DNA of 64,000 bases from an uncultured Bacteroidales bacterium (lineage in GTDB: Bacteria; Bacteroidota; Bacteroidia; Bacteroidales; P3), in NCBI GenBank assembly GCA_947165255.1, contig CAMUZR010000011.1, forward strand, positions 25,627-89,626, read 5' to 3'. The notes beneath the pieces are model-generated. The model was not told the DNA's origin. It saw only the letters and a list, made by a program, of their open reading frames with translations, and made no database searches. Made by a program: the position numbers and the translations under genes. This document shows, piece after piece, positions 5,904 to 17,761 of the stretch (its first letter is position 1; each line of letters opens with the position of its first letter).

Positions 5904-8378
5904 TTGCAAATAAAAATAATGAACAAGTCGCTATTTATAACTTCGCTGCTCCTGCTGCTCCAATTTTTTTCGTCCGCGATGGCGCAAGGGATATTGCAGG
6001 GGCGCGTCTCTAATACTGAGGGTCGTGCAGTGGAATTTGCCAATGTGGGTGTGGTTAGCGCCAAGACCCCCTACGGAGCTGTAACCGACACCCGTGGCTT
6101 CTATAGGCTCTCTGTAAAATCTTCCGACACTATCACCCTCCGCGTCTCCTGCACGGGCTATCAGGCGTTGGAACTGCGCCTGAAGCTGGCTCCCAAAGAG
6201 TCGCGCACACTTGACTTTACCCTCGCCCCTCTGTCTACCCAGCTTGACGAGGTGGTCGTTTCCGATGAGCACATCCGCTCTACCCCCTTCACCCAGATTG
6301 ACATAGAAAAAATAGAAAATACCGTGGGGCCTAACGACGGAGTGGAGGCGCTTATCAAAACCCTGCCCGACGTCAGCTCTGGCAACGAACTCTCGTCGCA
6401 GTATTCGGTCCGCGGCGGCTCGTTCGACGAAAACATGGTTTATATCAACGGGGTGGAAATCTATCGCCCACAGCTTATCCGTAGCGGCCAGCAGGAGGGT
6501 ATGAGCATTATCAATCCCGACCTTGTGGACCACCTGCTTTTCTCTCCCGGTGGATTCGATGCCACCTATGGCGACCGCATGTCGTCGGTTTTGGACATTA
6601 TCTACAGCCGCCCTCTCGAACGTCGTTTCCGTGCATCGCTCTCGCTGCTCGGAGGTTCACTCTCGGCGCAAGGACGCGTGGGCGAACGTTTCAGCTACAG
6701 CGTTGGTTTCCGCCAGCACAATAATAGCTATGTTTTTAAGAGCATGGACACCGAAGGCAGCTACCGTACCTCCTATACTGACCTTCAGGGTATCTTCGGC
6801 TATCGTGTGAACGATAAACTCGACCTTTCCCTCCTAACCATTTGGACTCGCAACGTCTACGGCCTCATTCCCTCTTCTCGCACTACCACCTTCGGTGGCA
6901 CTAGCACACGGTCGCTGGAGTTCGATGTCTATTTCGACGGCCGCGAGGTGGACAAGTACAATACCTTCCTAGGTTCCCTTACCCTTGACTACCATCCTTC
7001 CGATGACTTCCAATTGCGTTGGATTACCTCGGCGCAATACAACCGCGAGCAGGAACTTTACGACATTCAGGACCAGTACTGGCTCTACGAGGTGGGCATT
7101 GGCGAGCAGGTGGGTGACACCAATCGTTTTGACCGCGGCGTAGGCACCTTCCTCGAGCATGCCCGCAACTACCTCGACATGGGCATCTATGCCACCGAAT
7201 TCCGGGCCGTTCACTATGCTTCACTAGGCAATTGGAATTTCGGCATCAAGGCTCAGCTGGAACAAATACGCGACCGCATGCGCGAGTGGAAATGGGTGGA
7301 CAGCGCGGGCTACGCTTTCCCCACTGACCACCACACCCCCGGCCTCGACGACACTGCCGTCTTCAATCCCCAGCTGCAGCTCTTCTGCCATGCCGACAAC
7401 CAGATACAGACCCTCCGCGGCATCGCCTACCTGCAGCGCGAGGTCAACCTCTTCACCCGCAAGGACAACCTGGTGCGTCTCTTAGCCGGTGTGCGAGGGC
7501 AGTACTATGCCTCCTCTGTTCAGGACGGCCACCTGGGTACACAGTTCCTTCTCTCGCCCCGCCTGTCAGTGAACTACAAGCCCCACAGCCGCCACGACAT
7601 CCTCTACCGCCTGGCCGCTGGCGTCTATCAGCAGCCCTATCTCTACCGCGAGATGCGCCGTCTGGACGGCTCCCTCCACTCCGACCTCCCTGCCCAGACT
7701 TCCTATCAGGCCACCGGCACCGTCGATTGGAACATTCGCCTGTGGGACAAGCCTTTCCGCTTCACCGCCGATATTTATTATAAATATATTACCAATTTAG
7801 TTCCCTACACTATTGACAACCTCCGCATCCGCTATAATCCCGACCAGGAAGCCGTGGGCTATGCTGCCGGGGTCAGTCTGCGTGTCAATGGCGACTTCGT
7901 TCCTGGGCTGGAGTCGTGGGCCAGCCTCTCACTCATGCAAACCCAAGAAAAATTCCTAGGCGACACCCTCGGCTGGATCTCCCGTCCCACCGACCAGCGG
8001 CTCAACTTCAAGATTTTCTTCCAAGACTACCTTCCCTCCTTTCCCTGGTGGCGCATGAGCCTCAGCCTCCTATTCGGCACCCGCACCCCCGTCACCTTCC
8101 CCTATCAGAAAGACCGTGCCATCCGCAACTCCCTCCCTCCCTATTTCCGCGTCGACTGGGGCAACACGGTTCAACTCACCCGCTTCGAAAAAATCCGCAA
8201 CTCCAAGTTAGGACGTTTTTTCGACGACCTCTCCCTCGGCATCGAAGTCTTCAACCTTTTCAACTATCGCAACGTGGTGTCCTTCATCTGGGTGGCCGAC
8301 TACACCAACGAGTACTACGCAGTCCCCAACTACCTCACCGCCCGCCAAGTCAACGTCAAACTTACCGCCACCTTCTAA
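5904..8378 (+). CDS. TonB-dependent receptor with N-terminal carboxypeptidase-regulatory-like domain
   Basis: 824 aa; GILQGRVSNTEGRAVEFANVGV, plug-like YSVRGGSFDENMVYINGVEIY, C-terminal beta-barrel ending in F. First Met probably MNKSLF at about 5919. Confidence 0.88.
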   Translation: MQIKIMNKSLFITSLLLLLQFFSSAMAQGILQGRVSNTEGRAVEFANVGVVSAKTPYGAVTDTRGFYRLSVKSSDTITLRVSCTGYQALELRLKLAPKESRTLDFTLAPLSTQLDEVVVSDEHIRSTPFTQIDIEKIENTVGPNDGVEALIKTLPDVSSGNELSSQYSVRGGSFDENMVYINGVEIYRPQLIRSGQQEGMSIINPDLVDHLLFSPGGFDATYGDRMSSVLDIIYSRPLERRFRASLSLLGGSLSAQGRVGERFSYSVGFRQHNNSYVFKSMDTEGSYRTSYTDLQGIFGYRVNDKLDLSLLTIWTRNVYGLIPSSRTTTFGGTSTRSLEFDVYFDGREVDKYNTFLGSLTLDYHPSDDFQLRWITSAQYNREQELYDIQDQYWLYEVGIGEQVGDTNRFDRGVGTFLEHARNYLDMGIYATEFRAVHYASLGNWNFGIKAQLEQIRDRMREWKWVDSAGYAFPTDHHTPGLDDTAVFNPQLQLFCHADNQIQTLRGIAYLQREVNLFTRKDNLVRLLAGVRGQYYASSVQDGHLGTQFLLSPRLSVNYKPHSRHDILYRLAAGVYQQPYLYREMRRLDGSLHSDLPAQTSYQATGTVDWNIRLWDKPFRFTADIYYKYITNLVPYTIDNLRIRYNPDQEAVGYAAGVSLRVNGDFVPGLESWASLSLMQTQEKFLGDTLGWISRPTDQRLNFKIFFQDYLPSFPWWRMSLSLLFGTRTPVTFPYQKDRAIRNSLPPYFRVDWGNTVQLTRFEKIRNSKLGRFFDDLSLGIEVFNLFNYRNVVSFIWVADYTNEYYAVPNYLTARQVNVKLTATF

Positions 8379-9911: not shown

Positions 9912-9940
9912 TTGAGATTGAATTTTTTTATGTAAATTTG
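9912..9940 (+). promoter_or_regulatory. Bacteroidetes promoter TTG-N18-TAAATTTG
   Basis: TTG at 9912-9914, TAAATTTG at 9933-9940, followed by CAACCGC as at the 4.6 kb RNA promoter. Confidence 0.6.
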
Positions 9941-9945
9941 CAACC

Positions 9946-10187
9946 GCTTTCGAGAGATAGAAAGCAGTGAATCAAGAAAAAGCATTGCTAAAAGTCCTAA
10001 TCTGAAATTTCGCCAAAATTCATATGGGCAGACGGAGCAATTCTGCTTTCGCTTGTAGTGTATGCTTTAGGCTAAGTCCTTCGGCATATTCTCAGGCGTG
10101 AGATATGTTCCAGAGGCTCCGTTGCCCATAAAGGTGTTTGGCGATACCTCAGATTAACGGACATGAGCATATACCTCATGCCTTTTC
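9946..10187 (+). ncRNA. Structured stable RNA, 6S-like architecture
   Basis: Nested long stem: GTCC+TAATCTGA (9994-10005) with TCAGATTA+AC+GGAC (10149-10162); CGCCAAA (10011-10017) with TTTGGCG (10137-10143); ATGGGCA (10024-10030) with TGCCCAT (10123-10129); ACGGAGC (10032-10038) with GCTCCGT (10116-10122). Own promoter and 3' terminator. Confidence 0.65.
10162..10187 (+). terminator. Intrinsic terminator of the structured RNA
   Basis: CATGAG(10162-10167)/CTCATG(10175-10180) followed by CCTTTTCTTATTTT. Confidence 0.55.
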
Positions 10188-10355
10188 TTATTTTGGGTAC
10201 TTGACTTGTTCTGTAGTCTTAATATAATACAATTTGGTTTAAACTTTTTGCTATGATTGTTGACTACAAGAAAAACCACAAGATAAGGATGTATCTAAAT
10301 AAGGAAGAGAAAGCCTGAAAAATATTCTGCTAAAAAGAAACTGTAATAGAACTCA

Positions 10356-13300
10356 TTGAAAGAGTACATAATGACATATAGTGAACAAATACAAAACCTA
10401 ACGGACATCTCATTTAGCAAGATTATTGAGATTAACAAAGCTCTTGCTCCCGAGTATGGGCAAAATCGTCAATTATATAATAGTCTCAATCATGGTGTTT
10501 CCATATTAGAAGAAGAAGACCAGCTATTAGCATATATCGCTAATTATGGTGAAATGCATCAGAAAAAAATAGGTGAAATTCTTCCTAGGATTAACATCGA
10601 GGAACTGAGAAATACAGATATCCAGATAATCGATTGGGGGTGCGGGCAAGGATTGGCGACCTGCTGCCTTTTTGACTACTTGAAGGAGAAGAATGACAAT
10701 CTTGATATGGTCAAAAAAGTGGTTTTGATAGAGCCCTCTACAGCAGCTTCGAATAGAGCCCAGTTGCACGTAAATGCTTATTTGAAAGGTGACGAGAGGA
10801 TAGTTGTCATAAACAAACTTCTTAACGAGGTAACCGATACAGATATATCATCCACCACGCCTATCACCATCCATCTTTTCTCAAACATCTTGGACATCGC
10901 AACAATAGACTTGCTCCAACTTTCAAACACTATCAAAAAAGGCATACAGGACAAACATATATTCATCTGTATTGGGCCACTCAATTATGGCAATAATAGG
11001 ATTGACACCTTTTGGGGCTACTTTAATGAAGCGACAAATGTTTTTAGTCATTCCCATGGACGTCAGGAGTATAATAAAAGAGGAGAATTAGAACAGTCGT
11101 ACAATTATACGGCAAAGAGTCGCATTTTTGAGATAGATGGCGGTATTAGCAGACTGATATTTGTCGACTACTATCTTCCAAAACAATTCCATGCTGCATA
11201 TCAGTTGGATGCAGTCCGGAATGCACTGAAAGATGTAGACAAAGCCAAAGTGGATGGGCTATATCGGATGCTGTCTGATTTTGAGATACAGACTCCATTT
11301 GACATTGGTGCAAGCATATATGAGGATGTGCATCCGCTTCTGGCTGTATTAAGCAATATAATTGTAAGGGGATTGCCAACAAAGGCAAGTCCTTTTATAG
11401 AGAAAGCATTTGCCTCATTCGGAAACAGGCTTATCAAGGATGAATTAGGCGGCATCAACTTCAATATAGAAGGTCTTGAGCCGTCAGATCTATTCACAGC
11501 TCTGCATATAATAGATTCCCGATGGGAGCTCAACGCCGACAACTATAATGGTGAAGTATTGGATAGCGATTTGGAAAAGACATTTATCACTCAAACCTCT
11601 TCACAAATACTGCGACAGATACTGCAGCCTCAGCGAAGTATGGAGAGCATCACAACAAAGTCGGAGCATTATGCGCAGCGAGTTGATTTCGCATTTGAAT
11701 TCCCATATACTACAAAGGATAGCGCAGGTTTTGACAGAAAAGGACATGTTATCGAATTGGATGGGGATAAATACCATAGTGATACTAGTCAAATTCTATT
11801 CGACCAACAGCGTGAATATGAATTAATCTCATCAATGTGGTATTGCATAAGGCTTGGTGAGAATGATATTAATAAGGACGAGAGGGATTTATATTACCTT
11901 GGGAGCGAATACGTTCAAAAAATTCATGAGGCATACCTCCGTACTTATGACAAGACTTGGACAGATGCGCTCCAACTGACACTTTCGCCGATAGCCATAG
12001 CACGACTAGAGAAGACCGTCGTGGAAGCTTTAATGACTGGCAAGCTCAGCCTCAACGAAAAACAATGGAAGATTCTGGTCATTGAACGTGATGTACCTTG
12101 TGCGGCATTGGCATTTGAAGATTTGAAAAGGATGTTCAATCATTTAGCGAGGTTGAGTGAAGATCATTCAAATCTGCATTTCCCCGATGTGGAGTTGAAG
12201 ATTGTTAGCACCAGAGAATTTGCTTCATCGCCCCTGCACCGCAGAGTAAAAGTTGTAATGGACGAGTACCACTCGAACGAAGAGTACGACATGGTGATTG
12301 ATTGCTCCATGCTCCGTCGAGCTGGTTTGGAGAACTTGGACTTTAGCGAGTTTAAATGTAAAAATAAGTGCTATTTTATCATTAGGTCGTCACATTACCA
12401 TCGGAACGAGCGACAAATATATACCTCCGACAGGATTGTGTACAAGCCCTTGGTAAATATTGACAATCAGGGCAGATATATTGATATACCATACAACGTA
12501 TACGACTTAAAGCACTTCCTGCAATTGCTCTTTAGAAAGCGAGATTTCCGACCGGGGCAGACCCCGATATTGAGCCGTGCGCTGCAGTACAAGTCTGTAA
12601 TTGGGCTGTTGCCAACTGGCGGAGGAAAGTCTCTCACATACCAAATAGCAGCATTTCTGCAGCCAGGAGTAACTCTTGTAATTGACCCCCTACGCTCTCT
12701 GATGAAAGACCAGTACGATGGGTTGCTTAATGCAAAGATAGACGTATGTACCTATATTAATTCATCTATTGATGTCCCTGACACAATTGTAGATCCAGAC
12801 GAAAGAAAACAGTATCAGATTGAAGAACGAGAACGCCGCTCAAAACGTATGGAGAAATCAGAGCTTCTGTTTGTTTTCATGTCTCCCGAAAGACTGTCCA
12901 TCCTCAATTTCAGGCAACGACTAAAGAATATGTGCGACACAGGTGTTTATTTCTCATACGGTGTGATAGATGAAGTTCATTGCGTATCTGAGTGGGGACA
13001 TGATTTCCGCTTCACATATCTTCATCTGGGCAGAAATTTGTATCAGTATGTCTTACCCAAGCAACGAGAAGAGAAGAAAAACCACATTGCCCTATTTGGC
13101 CTAACCGCAACAGCATCATTTGACGTATTGGCAGATGTCGAACGAGAACTATCGGGAAACGGCGCATTCCCGTTAGACTCAGAAACCATCGTTCGTAATG
13201 GCAACACAAACAGATTCGAGCTTCAATATAAAATAGAACCCATTCCAGTTGAGTTTCCAACAAATAATGCTGGCGTAGCAAACATGAAAGAAGCCAAGTG

Positions 13301-15455
13301 GAGCATTTATGATACCAAAAAAGCCGCTCTCGATGGTTTGATCTCGAATATGCCCGATTATTTGAACCAGTTGTTAACAGACGACTCCTTACACAAAATA
13401 AAAGAAAACTATGGCAAAAAGAAACCGAGAGCAGACAGCACTATAGAAGCCATATCTCTTCAGGTGGAAATACCAGATAGCTTCATAGGCAAGGCCGATT
13501 CGTATGATTATGGAGGTATAGTGTTCTGTCCTCACAAAAGTAGCAAAAAGAAATTATTAAAGACAGGTTTATCTGTTTATGGCAATGAAGAAAATTTAAT
13601 AAATAAACATCCAAACATTTATATTGGGACATTTGTGGGCAGCAGTAATAGCGCAAATATTACCACCAATTCACCTATCGACTCTGACGAAGACTCTATT
13701 TCTGTCGATGAAGATAAACTATCGATGAAAAACCTCGAGTTATTCAGGGATAACAAGATTCCATTGATGATTGCCACAAAGGCCTTCGGAATGGGTATTG
13801 ACAAACCAAATGTGCGGTATACCATTAATATGAACCATTCCAGTTCTCTGGAAAGCTTTGTACAAGAAGCCGGTAGAGCGGGACGTGATAGAAAAATGGC
13901 TTTGGCCGTGATAATGTTCTCTAAATATGAGATTGCCCGTGTTAATCCATTTTCTACTTATTATACACCAGCAGAGAATGGGAAGTGGTATAACATCAAA
14001 GAACTTGAGACAATAGCTGGACGGAAACAAATACCATTATCGGAATTTGAAAAATGTGACGAATCGGATGACCTTGTAAAATTAAGATGCAAGCAGTGTG
14101 GGGAAGGTTGTAAACGGTTTGAGAAAAACTGTTGTGAGTGGGGCTGTAGCCATTTCGACTTCTGTAATCATGCAAGTGACAAATGCAAGAAAGCATGTGA
14201 ATATTTGAACTCTTGCGGGAAAATGAGTTCGATTCCTTCAGGGGATAGATGGGGAAATGTGGATCATTTAAAAAGCTACAAAGACAAGTATGGTTTCTTA
14301 ACTCCTGAGAATTATGAATACTTAAATGCCGACTATGAAACTGTAATGTTCTTTTACAACCAGAACTTCAAAGGAGAGCTAATTGAGAAGCAATACATGC
14401 ATCAGCTTTTGAGCAAAAAAAAGATGACGATATCAGACAACGACGATGGAGATATTAATAATGGTCAAACGGTATCAGGTTTTCTGGCTTCATTACAATC
14501 CGCCAATATAAAAGATGCGATAGTATCGTACATTCATTATGATGAGCCAGAATACGAAGACATCGCTAAAGCCATTTATCGAATGTGTTGTATTGAACTC
14601 ATTGACGACTTCACACAGGATTTTAACACGAATCAATTCAGAATTGTGACAACAAAAAAAGCAGATGGAGAATACTATAATGCTCTAGAAAGATATCTAA
14701 GGCGCTATTACTCCGAAGAACGTGCTAAAGAGTTGATTGAAGAAGTTCCAGATTACAAAGGAGACAATGAGATACATAAGTGTCTTGGTTTTTTAACCCA
14801 CTTCATATATGACAAGATTGCGGTAAAGAGAAAAAGAGCTATTGATGATATAAGAAATTTTTGTCTGCGTGGAATCCGAAAAGAATCGGACTGGAAAGAT
14901 GTAAATGAGGATTTGAAGGATGAGTTGTATTTCTATTTCAACTCAAAATATGCCCGTCGGGGTTATACAACAGAAAGCGGTTTGCCTTATTCTTTGACTG
15001 ACGAAACATATGAGGGAAAGACATCATCAGAGGATACTGTGTTCAAATATATGGAAGTGGTGGATGACAACTGGATTTCCAAGCATTCTGAAGTCGGCTC
15101 AGCACAAATTGACAATGCAAAACATCTGTACGGTGCAGTACGTTTGATTAAACGCAATTTGACAGACGATAACCCGGCCATTTATTTACTAAACGCTTTT
15201 TGTTTAATGTTTCTTGGCACGAATGACAACAAGACACTAGAAGAAGAATTAGGGGAAATGTATGAAAAGGGAATGGTCGGTTTTTTTGAAAGGACAGAAT
15301 CAGAGGGGCATTTCTGGAATGACATTTTTAACAGGTTCAATAGCAATCCATATGTAGCCAATTACATTGCAGACAAAACTCTTTTGAAAGCATATATCAT
15401 TTTAAAAATACACGAAATAGAAACCCACCAGATTAATAATAATTATTCCGCATAG
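10356..15455 (+). CDS. SAM-methyltransferase-like / DUF559-Vsr-like PD-(D/E)XK / RecQ-type helicase fusion, putative defence protein
   Basis: 1699 aa; IIDWGCGQG (SAM motif I) with VVLIEPS; VIELDGDKYHSD...DQQREYELISSMWYCIRLGE (DUF559/Vsr-like); LLPTGGGKSLTYQ (Walker A); IDEVHCVSEWGHDFR; LTATAS; AFGMGIDKPNVRYTINMNHSSSLESFVQEAGRAGRD; Cys cluster CKQCGEGC...CCEWGCSHFDFC. Confidence 0.85.
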   Translation: MKEYIMTYSEQIQNLTDISFSKIIEINKALAPEYGQNRQLYNSLNHGVSILEEEDQLLAYIANYGEMHQKKIGEILPRINIEELRNTDIQIIDWGCGQGLATCCLFDYLKEKNDNLDMVKKVVLIEPSTAASNRAQLHVNAYLKGDERIVVINKLLNEVTDTDISSTTPITIHLFSNILDIATIDLLQLSNTIKKGIQDKHIFICIGPLNYGNNRIDTFWGYFNEATNVFSHSHGRQEYNKRGELEQSYNYTAKSRIFEIDGGISRLIFVDYYLPKQFHAAYQLDAVRNALKDVDKAKVDGLYRMLSDFEIQTPFDIGASIYEDVHPLLAVLSNIIVRGLPTKASPFIEKAFASFGNRLIKDELGGINFNIEGLEPSDLFTALHIIDSRWELNADNYNGEVLDSDLEKTFITQTSSQILRQILQPQRSMESITTKSEHYAQRVDFAFEFPYTTKDSAGFDRKGHVIELDGDKYHSDTSQILFDQQREYELISSMWYCIRLGENDINKDERDLYYLGSEYVQKIHEAYLRTYDKTWTDALQLTLSPIAIARLEKTVVEALMTGKLSLNEKQWKILVIERDVPCAALAFEDLKRMFNHLARLSEDHSNLHFPDVELKIVSTREFASSPLHRRVKVVMDEYHSNEEYDMVIDCSMLRRAGLENLDFSEFKCKNKCYFIIRSSHYHRNERQIYTSDRIVYKPLVNIDNQGRYIDIPYNVYDLKHFLQLLFRKRDFRPGQTPILSRALQYKSVIGLLPTGGGKSLTYQIAAFLQPGVTLVIDPLRSLMKDQYDGLLNAKIDVCTYINSSIDVPDTIVDPDERKQYQIEERERRSKRMEKSELLFVFMSPERLSILNFRQRLKNMCDTGVYFSYGVIDEVHCVSEWGHDFRFTYLHLGRNLYQYVLPKQREEKKNHIALFGLTATASFDVLADVERELSGNGAFPLDSETIVRNGNTNRFELQYKIEPIPVEFPTNNAGVANMKEAKWSIYDTKKAALDGLISNMPDYLNQLLTDDSLHKIKENYGKKKPRADSTIEAISLQVEIPDSFIGKADSYDYGGIVFCPHKSSKKKLLKTGLSVYGNEENLINKHPNIYIGTFVGSSNSANITTNSPIDSDEDSISVDEDKLSMKNLELFRDNKIPLMIATKAFGMGIDKPNVRYTINMNHSSSLESFVQEAGRAGRDRKMALAVIMFSKYEIARVNPFSTYYTPAENGKWYNIKELETIAGRKQIPLSEFEKCDESDDLVKLRCKQCGEGCKRFEKNCCEWGCSHFDFCNHASDKCKKACEYLNSCGKMSSIPSGDRWGNVDHLKSYKDKYGFLTPENYEYLNADYETVMFFYNQNFKGELIEKQYMHQLLSKKKMTISDNDDGDINNGQTVSGFLASLQSANIKDAIVSYIHYDEPEYEDIAKAIYRMCCIELIDDFTQDFNTNQFRIVTTKKADGEYYNALERYLRRYYSEERAKELIEEVPDYKGDNEIHKCLGFLTHFIYDKIAVKRKRAIDDIRNFCLRGIRKESDWKDVNEDLKDELYFYFNSKYARRGYTTESGLPYSLTDETYEGKTSSEDTVFKYMEVVDDNWISKHSEVGSAQIDNAKHLYGAVRLIKRNLTDDNPAIYLLNAFCLMFLGTNDNKTLEEELGEMYEKGMVGFFERTESEGHFWNDIFNRFNSNPYVANYIADKTLLKAYIILKIHEIETHQINNNYSA

Positions 15456-15457
15456 CT

Positions 15458-16489
15458 ATGATAGACAAAATCAACCAATCTTTACTCCAATTGGAAGAAG
15501 ATCTTAAGGGAATCGAATCTGCCAAAAAACAGGTGGAGGAAGTTTTGAAATCCCACAAAGATTTGCAGAACACTGTTTCTGACTATATCCGAGCGTTGGG
15601 GATTCTACAGACAAACACCCTATCACTTATTGAGGTCATCAAGAATCAGAATGAAAGCGACCTATCCATCTTAAAGAATAATGTTGAGCAGATAAAGAAA
15701 AATTGCGATGAAATCTTATCCACATTCAGCACAAATGTCGAGAGTGTATTTTCAACTTTTAAGGATAGGATTGACCAATCAGTTGACCACTTGAAAGATG
15801 GTTGCAATAGTGTAGCATCAGCATTCGCGAAAGGTGTTGATGAAGCACTTGCCTCATTACAGTCGAGAGTGGACGAGTCTGTAAAAAAAATTGATGATAA
15901 GGTATCAGTATTGAATACATCCATCAAAACGTTAGGTGAGATTGAATCTTCATTTAGAGAGTCTGTCAAAAAAGTGGATGCGATTAAAAATGCCATAGAC
16001 AAAATATTGGACGAGTTGATTTCATCGCAAAAGAGCCAGGATGAGTGTCTTGAATCCATAAAAAAAGACATCTTATCTGTTGCTACCAAACTTGATGAAT
16101 CGGAATCAAAACTAGAAAAGCTAAACAGCGACTTATCTGCCCAGATAAAAGCCATTGACACCTACTTACACTCGTCATTTAGTATTGTGACCAATGCAAT
16201 ACAAGATTGCGCTAATAATATTCAGCAGATACAGAACGTCCAAAATCAACAATTAAACATACTGACAGGAGCTGTCAATGCGATAAATAACATTTCAAAT
16301 GGAGTTTCTAAAATCGATTCGAATGTTCTTTCTATAATCAGTACACAGCAATCATTATTGATCCAAATATCGAAGGACAAAAAAGATATAGTAGGAGAAC
16401 TGAGCAAACAGAGAAAGACGACTTCCATACTATTGGTCATCTGCATTTTATCGTTACTGGCAGCTGTGGCATCATTATTATTAAGATAA
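15458..16489 (+). CDS. Coiled-coil protein with C-terminal transmembrane anchor
   Basis: 343 aa; long heptad-rich helical sequence; C-terminal SILLVICILSLLAAVASLLLR. Starts 2 nt after the helicase stop. Confidence 0.85.
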   Translation: MIDKINQSLLQLEEDLKGIESAKKQVEEVLKSHKDLQNTVSDYIRALGILQTNTLSLIEVIKNQNESDLSILKNNVEQIKKNCDEILSTFSTNVESVFSTFKDRIDQSVDHLKDGCNSVASAFAKGVDEALASLQSRVDESVKKIDDKVSVLNTSIKTLGEIESSFRESVKKVDAIKNAIDKILDELISSQKSQDECLESIKKDILSVATKLDESESKLEKLNSDLSAQIKAIDTYLHSSFSIVTNAIQDCANNIQQIQNVQNQQLNILTGAVNAINNISNGVSKIDSNVLSIISTQQSLLIQISKDKKDIVGELSKQRKTTSILLVICILSLLAAVASLLLR

Positions 16490-16705
16490 TTCACATGTAG
16501 TATGAACATGATGAATGAAACCCTTAATAATAGGGATTATTGACATACGGGTAGAGACAGTTTTGTTGTATAGTAATAATACGTAAAAATGGTTTTTCGA
16601 CAGAGATAGGTGGAAAAAGGTTTACACGATAATCCAAAAGTGGAAGATGGAACAGGATTCGACCAATAATGGCAATAATAACACTTGATGTAATTGTGAG
16701 GAATC

Positions 16706-17761
16706 ATGAACGACAAGGTAAGAATTACGCTTGACGATGGGAGCGTGGTGGAGACCACGATGCACCCGGTGATTGTGTCGGCGAGCCGGGCGACGGATAT
16801 TCCGGCCTTTTATGCCGACTGGTTTTTCTATCGGTTGCAACGGGGGTATTCGGCTTGGATTAACCCTTTCAACAATAGGAAGGGGTATGTGTCGTACCGG
16901 GACACGCGTTTTATTGTATTTTGGTCGAAAAACCCGAAACCGCTTCTGGAACACTTAGACGAGCTGGACCGGCGGGGTATTGGCTGTTATGTCCAATATA
17001 CGCTGAACGACTATGAAGGGGACGGTCTGGAAAAGAACGTTCCTTCCTTGGGTGAGCGCATCGACACGTTCCGACGGCTGGTGGACAGGCTTGGCAAAGG
17101 ACATATGATTTGGCGGTTTGACCCCTTGGTGCTGACTGACCGCATCGATGAGGAGGCGCTTTTGGAGAAGATAGCCCGCGTGGGTGAGCAGCTGAGGGGC
17201 TATACCGAGAAATTGGTATTCAGTTTCGCCGATATTGCTAGTTACCGTAAAGTGAAACACAACCTGCAGGAGGCCAATATTTGCTGTAAAGAATGGGACG
17301 AACCTAGAATGCGTGCATTTGCCGCACGCTTGGTTGACCTGAACAGGAGTTGGGGCTATACCTTGGCCACGTGTGGCGAACAGGTCCAACTACCGGGGGT
17401 GGAACACAACCACTGTGTGGACCACGACCTGATTATCCGTCTGGCTTATCGCGATGAACAGCTGATGAAATATCTAGGCGTAACAAAAATTCCAGTGCAA
17501 CGCGATATGTTTGGCAATGCCGAGTTGCTGGAAGGTGGCATTCTATTGGACAACGGTATGGTGGCCATACAACGGAAAAAAATGCCCGACAAGGGACAGC
17601 GAAAGGCTTGCGGCTGCATGGTGAGCAAGGACATAGGACAATATAATACTTGTTTGCACCAATGCGAATACTGTTATGCTACTGCCAGCAAGGAGATTGC
17701 GCAGCGCAACTGGAGTCTGCATCAAGCCAATCCACAAGGGGAGACCATTTCAGGGAAATAG
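16706..17761 (+). CDS. DUF1848 family protein (radical-SAM-like)
   Basis: 351 aa; VIVSASRATDIPAFYADWFFYRLQRGYSAWINPFN...FIVFWSKNPKP, C-terminal CGCMVSKDIGQYNTCLHQCEYCYA. Confidence 0.85.
   Translation: MNDKVRITLDDGSVVETTMHPVIVSASRATDIPAFYADWFFYRLQRGYSAWINPFNNRKGYVSYRDTRFIVFWSKNPKPLLEHLDELDRRGIGCYVQYTLNDYEGDGLEKNVPSLGERIDTFRRLVDRLGKGHMIWRFDPLVLTDRIDEEALLEKIARVGEQLRGYTEKLVFSFADIASYRKVKHNLQEANICCKEWDEPRMRAFAARLVDLNRSWGYTLATCGEQVQLPGVEHNHCVDHDLIIRLAYRDEQLMKYLGVTKIPVQRDMFGNAELLEGGILLDNGMVAIQRKKMPDKGQRKACGCMVSKDIGQYNTCLHQCEYCYATASKEIAQRNWSLHQANPQGETISGK

Follow-up and report, generated by a model that had tools for sequence, protein, structure and literature searches.

What is the structured RNA encoded just upstream of a candidate defence operon in an uncultured Bacteroidales bacterium, and does it act on its own or on the gene that follows? 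The window analysed here is a 64,000-nt stretch of that genome, and the original prediction, made from the sequence, placed at positions 9946-10187 a 6S-like RNA gene with its own promoter and terminator, directly ahead of the operon. The location was borne out, and the proposed coordinates proved nearly exact, as the block conserved in relatives spans about 9931-10192.

We began from the fold. Every named arm of the proposed rod at 9994-10162 was found in the sequence, nested in the claimed order. The minimum free energy (MFE) of 9946-10187 was -95.6 kcal/mol, compared with a shuffle mean of -59.35 (sd 4.62; z -7.85), and 0 of 200 shuffles matched it. Together with the covarying rod described below, this z score supports the claim of a strongly structured RNA. 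The predicted promoter (TTG-N18-TAAATTTG) is present, and its -7 box is kept in relatives. A terminator scan likewise recovered a terminator-like hairpin with a U-rich tail at 10162-10180, where 0.3 such hairpins were expected in shuffles. No tRNA or tmRNA overlapped 9946-10187. The features of the locus are as follows, each with its basis in brackets.

9912-9940, + strand: Bacteroidota-type promoter, with TTG at 9912-9914, 18 nt, then TAAATTTG at 9933-9940 (sequence and upstream conservation)
9946-9965, + strand: 5' hairpin 1, GCTTTC..GAAAGC, at the expected transcript start (pairing in genus copies)
9974-9988, + strand: A-rich 5' closing strand AAGAAAAAGCATTGC, which can pair with the 3' end ATGCCTTTTCTT (MFE structure)
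9994-10163, + strand: rod (state A), 5' half paired with 3' half (51 pairs, covariation)
9994-9997 and 10160-10163, + strand: rod arm pair GTCC / GGAC (sequence)
9998-10005 and 10150-10157, + strand: rod arm pair TAATCTGA / TCAGATTA (sequence)
10012-10018 and 10138-10144, + strand: rod arm pair CGCCAAA / TTTGGCG (sequence)
10025-10031 and 10124-10130, + strand: rod arm pair ATGGGCA / TGCCCAT (sequence)
10033-10039 and 10117-10123, + strand: rod arm pair ACGGAGC / GCTCCGT (sequence)
10095-10102, + strand: internal switch arm GGCGTGAG (near-invariant in the genus)
10162-10189, + strand: 3' tail CATGAG..CTCATGCC, then a U-rich tract, the terminator (terminator scan, invariance)
10253-10318, + strand: 21-codon ORF at the usual leader-to-start distance (sequence)
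10371-15455, + strand: 1694-aa DEAD/Helicase_C protein (DpdF-like by PADLOC), the first large gene behind the leader (188 nt away)

The RNA belongs to a family. A nucleotide search gave matches in 34 of 37 genus genomes, most with one to several full-length copies that were 70-82% identical. A profile search of genus contigs yielded 62 full-length copies, conserved from the promoter to just past the terminator. A covariance model built from 61 copies (R1) matched 100 of 120 genus genomes, with up to 10 copies per genome, and 43 of 294 genomes across the order (29 genera). The small yield of a class-wide R1 search (5 of 289) indicates that the family is mainly Bacteroidales, at the sensitivity of R1. 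A 17-base core, GGTGTTTGGCGATACCT, occurs in at least 119 contigs of GTDB genomes, carriers among the matches listed being Phocaeicola massiliensis, Butyricimonas synergistica, Coprobacter secundus, and Bacteroides timonensis. The core was also present in 17 viral contigs, 16 of which R1 confirmed, as it did nearly all core-bearing contigs that were read. Nucleotide searches gave no match among plasmids and one partial match among annotated phages. Carriers of the family are many gut and rumen bacteria and some viral contigs.

Known families did not account for these copies. With Rfam 15, the window and 20 related loci gave nothing above the gathering threshold except one unrelated tRNA, and relaxed E-values revealed nothing relevant in the window region or in distant homologs. 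No published description was found in open-access text. The family is apparently an undescribed, many-copy RNA, an unnamed fragment of which may be contained in a motif screen (PMC8040213).

Covariation had been named in the original prediction as a check on the fold, and the helices do covary among relatives. In the genus alignment, 94.0% of cells across the 51 rod pairs were paired, and 21 pairs had changed on both sides. The rod covariation score was 0.263, compared with 0.115 for shuffled alignments and 0.04-0.07 with slid partners. Hairpin 1 was paired in 94-97% of the 62 genus copies and included a U-A/A-U swap. An alignment-free test on 40 dissimilar homologs gave mean energies of -11.1 (cognate) vs -4.9 kcal/mol (permuted) for the outer rod duplex (z ~-18) and -19.1 vs -10.9 kcal/mol for the inner (z ~-17), while reversed controls were weak or null. 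Distant homologs also carry a counterpart of the closing strand (AAAAGCGU/ACGCUUUU).

A second fold is conserved alongside the rod. In distant homologs, the segment immediately 5' of the U-tract is complementary to the internal arm (e.g. AAGGCGUGGAUUGUUUG with CAAACGGUUCCGCCUU in locus L244, and AGGCGUGAGUUGUUUCG with CGAAAUGGCUUACGCUU in L259). The duplex of internal arm and U-tract tail had a cognate mean of -17.46 kcal/mol vs -14.25 when permuted (0 of 1000), and the effect was gone when the tail was reversed (-11.47 vs -11.72). Most positions of this helix showed several standard pair types (e.g. G-C, U-A, and C-G). Each half of the RNA also pairs with itself across homologs, the 5' half through UAUCCUU/AAGGAUA (z -10.5) and the 3' half through CUGUUUAU/AUAAACUG (z -9.4), and the 3' domain of this alternative fold ends in a helix of 10-17 bp followed by the U-tract. 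In the genus, the arm/tail helix corresponds to GGCGUGAG (window 10095-10102) with CUCAUGCC (10175-10182), and CTCATGCCTTT within the tail was invariant across 61 aligned copies. The switch arm GGCGTGAG would have two partners, TTTCGCTTG upstream in the rod and CTCATGCC downstream in the terminator state. The conserved core is likewise paired in both folds (UUUGGCGA with UCGCCAA in the rod, GGUGU with AUACC in the separate domain).

The separate-domain helices are mutually exclusive with the rod, and both folds covary across genera. As the four segments are partly palindromic, covariation of one fold partly carries to the other by transitivity, and the two signals are not fully independent. 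In computed stability the rod was favored in every case tested: for the window it reached -98.7, against -72.8 for the terminator fold, and in six distant examples, those of eight in which the intended helix was enforced, it was more stable by 2 to 17 kcal/mol. A switch would thus have to be kinetic or partner-aided, and the choice of fold is probably made during RNA synthesis.

Where the copies sit points to what they act on. A same-strand start codon follows the terminator at a measured 47-118 nt in 47 of the 62 genus copies, mostly at 53-63 or 77-98 nt. Nine more are open from within the terminator, so that their start must be near, bringing the total with a closely following start codon to 56 of 62. 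For three genus copies (c14, c49, and c56) the next gene is 418-1232 nt away. Across the order, a start codon was found within 90 nt in 47 of 59 homologs, compared with 37% from random positions; the other 12 had none within that distance. Nearly all named and viral copies have one close downstream. The motif TAnnTTTG occurs 15-115 nt upstream of the rod in 51 of 75 named or viral homologs and in 46 of 58 distant ones, at 45-101 nt in the latter; shuffles gave 5-7%, the 7% applying to the distant set. The short stretch between terminator and start offers scant space, if any, for a second promoter. On the simplest reading, transcription of the gene begins at the leader promoter and passes through the terminator. 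Placement between promoter and start codon makes these copies 5' leaders, not free-standing 6S RNAs.

Several further elements accompany the leader. A G-rich motif occupies the terminator-to-start gap in 57 of 62 genus copies, mostly as a small hairpin such as CCGTTGGAGGGTCGG. This second hairpin, with a GGAGG/GGGGA-like loop in most genus copies (e.g. L061 and L044), is possibly a translation element; it also occurs in ~40% of distant copies (e.g. L338, about 2520-2540). An extra conserved block like GTTGCGCCCGACACGTATNAGGG precedes the ATG of lipoprotein or surface genes at six loci (L058, L048, L069, L073, L076, and L055). At the other end, many genus tRNA operons begin with the same promoter and CNNGCTTTCGAGAG as the leader (L121-L147, solo promoter matches), and CNNGCTTTCGAGAG appears to be a stable-RNA-type initial transcribed sequence common to both.

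The genes behind family copies are accessory and changeable. Within the genus they encode surface-type products (BspA-type LRR, DUF285 surface, and fibronectin-type proteins, and lipoproteins) and others including Zorya ZorA, SspC, a type III methyltransferase, an Mrr nuclease, and tubulin-like and CD225/Sel1 proteins. Among 40 random first genes from other genera and viral contigs, 11 had LRR repeats; the remainder included BACON, laminin-G/sorting-tail, HSDR_N, HTH_26, RNase_T, and GIY-YIG proteins, and many had no Pfam match. No pathway was common to the downstream genes. On three viral contigs (L388, L390, and L391) the leader stands directly ahead of an HSDR_N-type protein (domain tested on L388). 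In many copies, a 60-85 aa protein of the form MKxxYxSPVVEVLNARVExG is encoded between the leader and a DUF285 LRR gene (L059, L064, L049:15125-15337, L087, L047, and L075); the one tested had no Pfam match. Another copy (L049, about 8000-8300) lies 418 nt upstream of the housekeeping nusA and infB operon, with no accessory gene between.

Our data suggest that the RNA is a cis-acting 5' leader working as a transcription attenuator, a reading to which we assign a probability of roughly 0.7. Members of the family lie behind a promoter and just ahead of a start codon (188 nt ahead of the gene in the window copy) and have two conserved, mutually exclusive folds, with one helix abutting the U-tract as a predicted intrinsic terminator. 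Such a device is defined, in its geometry, by a helix just before the U-tract that excludes a second conserved helix. RNA polymerase would start just behind the TAAATTTG box and transcribe the 5' hairpin, then the four segments. Pairing of segments 1 with 4 and 2 with 3 would form the rod; pairing of 1 with 2 and 3 with 4 would form the terminator, from the 3' helix of 10-17 bp and the U-tract. The fold formed would decide whether polymerase continues into the gene, which typically begins about 60 nt further on. We infer that the predicted terminator is functional in vivo, that read-through goes with the rod, and that the balance between folds is set by a signal (a ligand, a protein, or another RNA). 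The family would then control accessory genes in Bacteroidales, from LRR surface proteins and lipoproteins to defence systems and phage genes.

A wider proposal is evenly balanced in our judgment: that this is a new Bacteroidales-wide class of two-state leader RNA, an on/off gate shared by accessory genes of the LRR surface-protein and anti-phage kinds, which moves with those genes, also in phages, and answers to one shared signal. If gating is true, one RNA element would couple the expression of surface-variation and phage-defence genes in gut and rumen bacteria. Few regulatory RNAs are understood in this major bacterial group. Provided that the leader gates transcription, its copies would also mark many accessory genes annotated without function as one candidate regulon, and the trigger can be sought in cultured species (e.g. 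P. massiliensis and B. synergistica).

A special case of the attenuator reading is a riboswitch, in which the switch would be set when the conserved TCGCCAA / GGTGTTTGGCGATACC core binds a small ligand. Across genera, no other part is as conserved as this core, and the expression platform resembles a terminator switch. However, pairing in both folds accounts for the core (TCGCCAA/TTGGCGA and GGTGT/ATACC), and the downstream genes have no pathway in common, which leaves the riboswitch a doubtful, though not negligible, candidate.

We consider improbable the idea of a free-standing small RNA (a 6S-like polymerase mimic or trans regulator) whose transcript stops at its own terminator and which only happens to precede mobile genes. 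It would suit a long rod with internal loops, an own promoter and terminator, and the rod as the most stable fold, and the promoter and first nucleotides resemble those of genus tRNA operons, as for a stable RNA. Against it, the 6S model RF00013 matched in 5 control genomes but in none of 21 genomes from the genus and order. A search with RF01685 (6S-Flavo), run without a positive control, gave no match in the window's own genome, and cmscan of the region found no better match to another Rfam family. Rather than one or two free-standing genes, there are up to 10 copies per genome, mostly before same-strand genes, each a different gene at a near-fixed distance, as a rule some 50-90 nt ahead of its start codon. 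Covariation also backs the competing terminator helix, which a 6S RNA would not need. Of the original prediction, the structured RNA with its promoter and terminator therefore stands, but the 6S identity is not supported, given the absence of a model match, the copy number, and the position.

The window's own copy is atypical, with 188 nt to the helicase gene and the usual second hairpin lost; a sigma-70-like promoter match lies behind it at 10201-10228. Its control of the helicase gene is therefore uncertain. The 21-codon ORF may be what is left of a former cargo gene, or it may have arisen by chance. The window leader may have lost its first cargo, and the claim of attenuation is stronger for the family than for the helicase gene.

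The orthologous locus of another species (G030) has the same upstream DNA and a leader, but Zorya in place of the helicase. The two are near-identical through the end of hairpin 1 and ~75% identical thereafter, and their cargo differs. Two pairs of copies (c30/c31 and c57/c58) show the reverse pattern, differing upstream and near-identical from hairpin 1 onward. The sharp identity break at the junction of hairpin 1 and rod was seen at window 9946-9970, at G030:C163 (L032), and in L041/L050 and L084/L085. Copies at the same site with different cargo are alike only in the upstream part; those with the same cargo at different sites are alike only from the rod onward. The leader may thus be a place where cassettes recombine. 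In the window, 10188-17410 has 40% GC, compared with 51-55% around it, and includes the genes for a coiled-coil-like protein of 343 aa and the DpdF-like helicase. The variable segment has its right edge at roughly 17414, from where the sequence is again 96% identical to G030.

These breakpoints are what would favor a module acting at the DNA level: a conserved block at the cassette edge for landing or recombination, with the RNA fold as a secondary matter. We hold this to be very improbable, since the covariation is of RNA pairing and in register only, neither a shared repeat at the right end nor a dedicated recombinase was found, and ordinary homologous recombination within a conserved leader accounts for the breakpoints. 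Other candidates were rejected: an integron-like cassette with an attachment site (most solo promoter-plus-hairpin matches proved to be leaders of tRNA operons instead of empty sites); a right-end element conserved downstream of the cargo (seen at some loci only, and accounted for by terminators, shared flanks, and the C-termini of genes); a retron, DRT, or type III toxin-antitoxin RNA (the copies do not adjoin any one partner protein); and trp-type leader-peptide attenuation (no conserved ORF, and an ATG in the first 60 nt of only 23 of 62 genus copies).

Among known RNAs, 6S RNA (RF00013 and RF01685), which has been detected experimentally in Bacteroides thetaiotaomicron (PMC7366714), resembles the family in its rod of ~170-200 nt with internal loops, a closing stem, and its own promoter. 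The family differs in having no model match, many copies, a fixed place before genes, and a competing terminator fold. The Bacteroidales-1, Bacteroides-1, and Bacteroid-trp motifs, known RNA motifs of the Bacteroidota (PMC2864571), have the phylum in common with it; all three are Rfam families, and none matched the window or distant homologs.

Parallels are also found in trp-type, TRAP-type, and ribosomal-protein attenuators, which alternate 1:2/3:4 with 2:3 pairing. Like the family, these are promoter-proximal leaders with exclusive helices, a 3' helix followed by a U-tract, and a gene start just downstream. In contrast, the family has no conserved leader peptide and no single target pathway; all four of its segments pair in the alternative fold as a full rod, and its targets are many unrelated accessory genes per genome.

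Accessory operons are also governed by RfaH and ops, by UpxY-type antitermination in Bacteroides capsule loci, and by EAR and LoaP leaders. These systems share with the family a promoter-proximal element that governs surface or other accessory operons gained by horizontal transfer. No linked antiterminator gene was seen beside family copies, and here it is the leader RNA itself that is conserved and covaries. The family is a new one built on a known kind of device, and it is unusual in its full-length rod, the breadth of its targets, and its presence in viral contigs.
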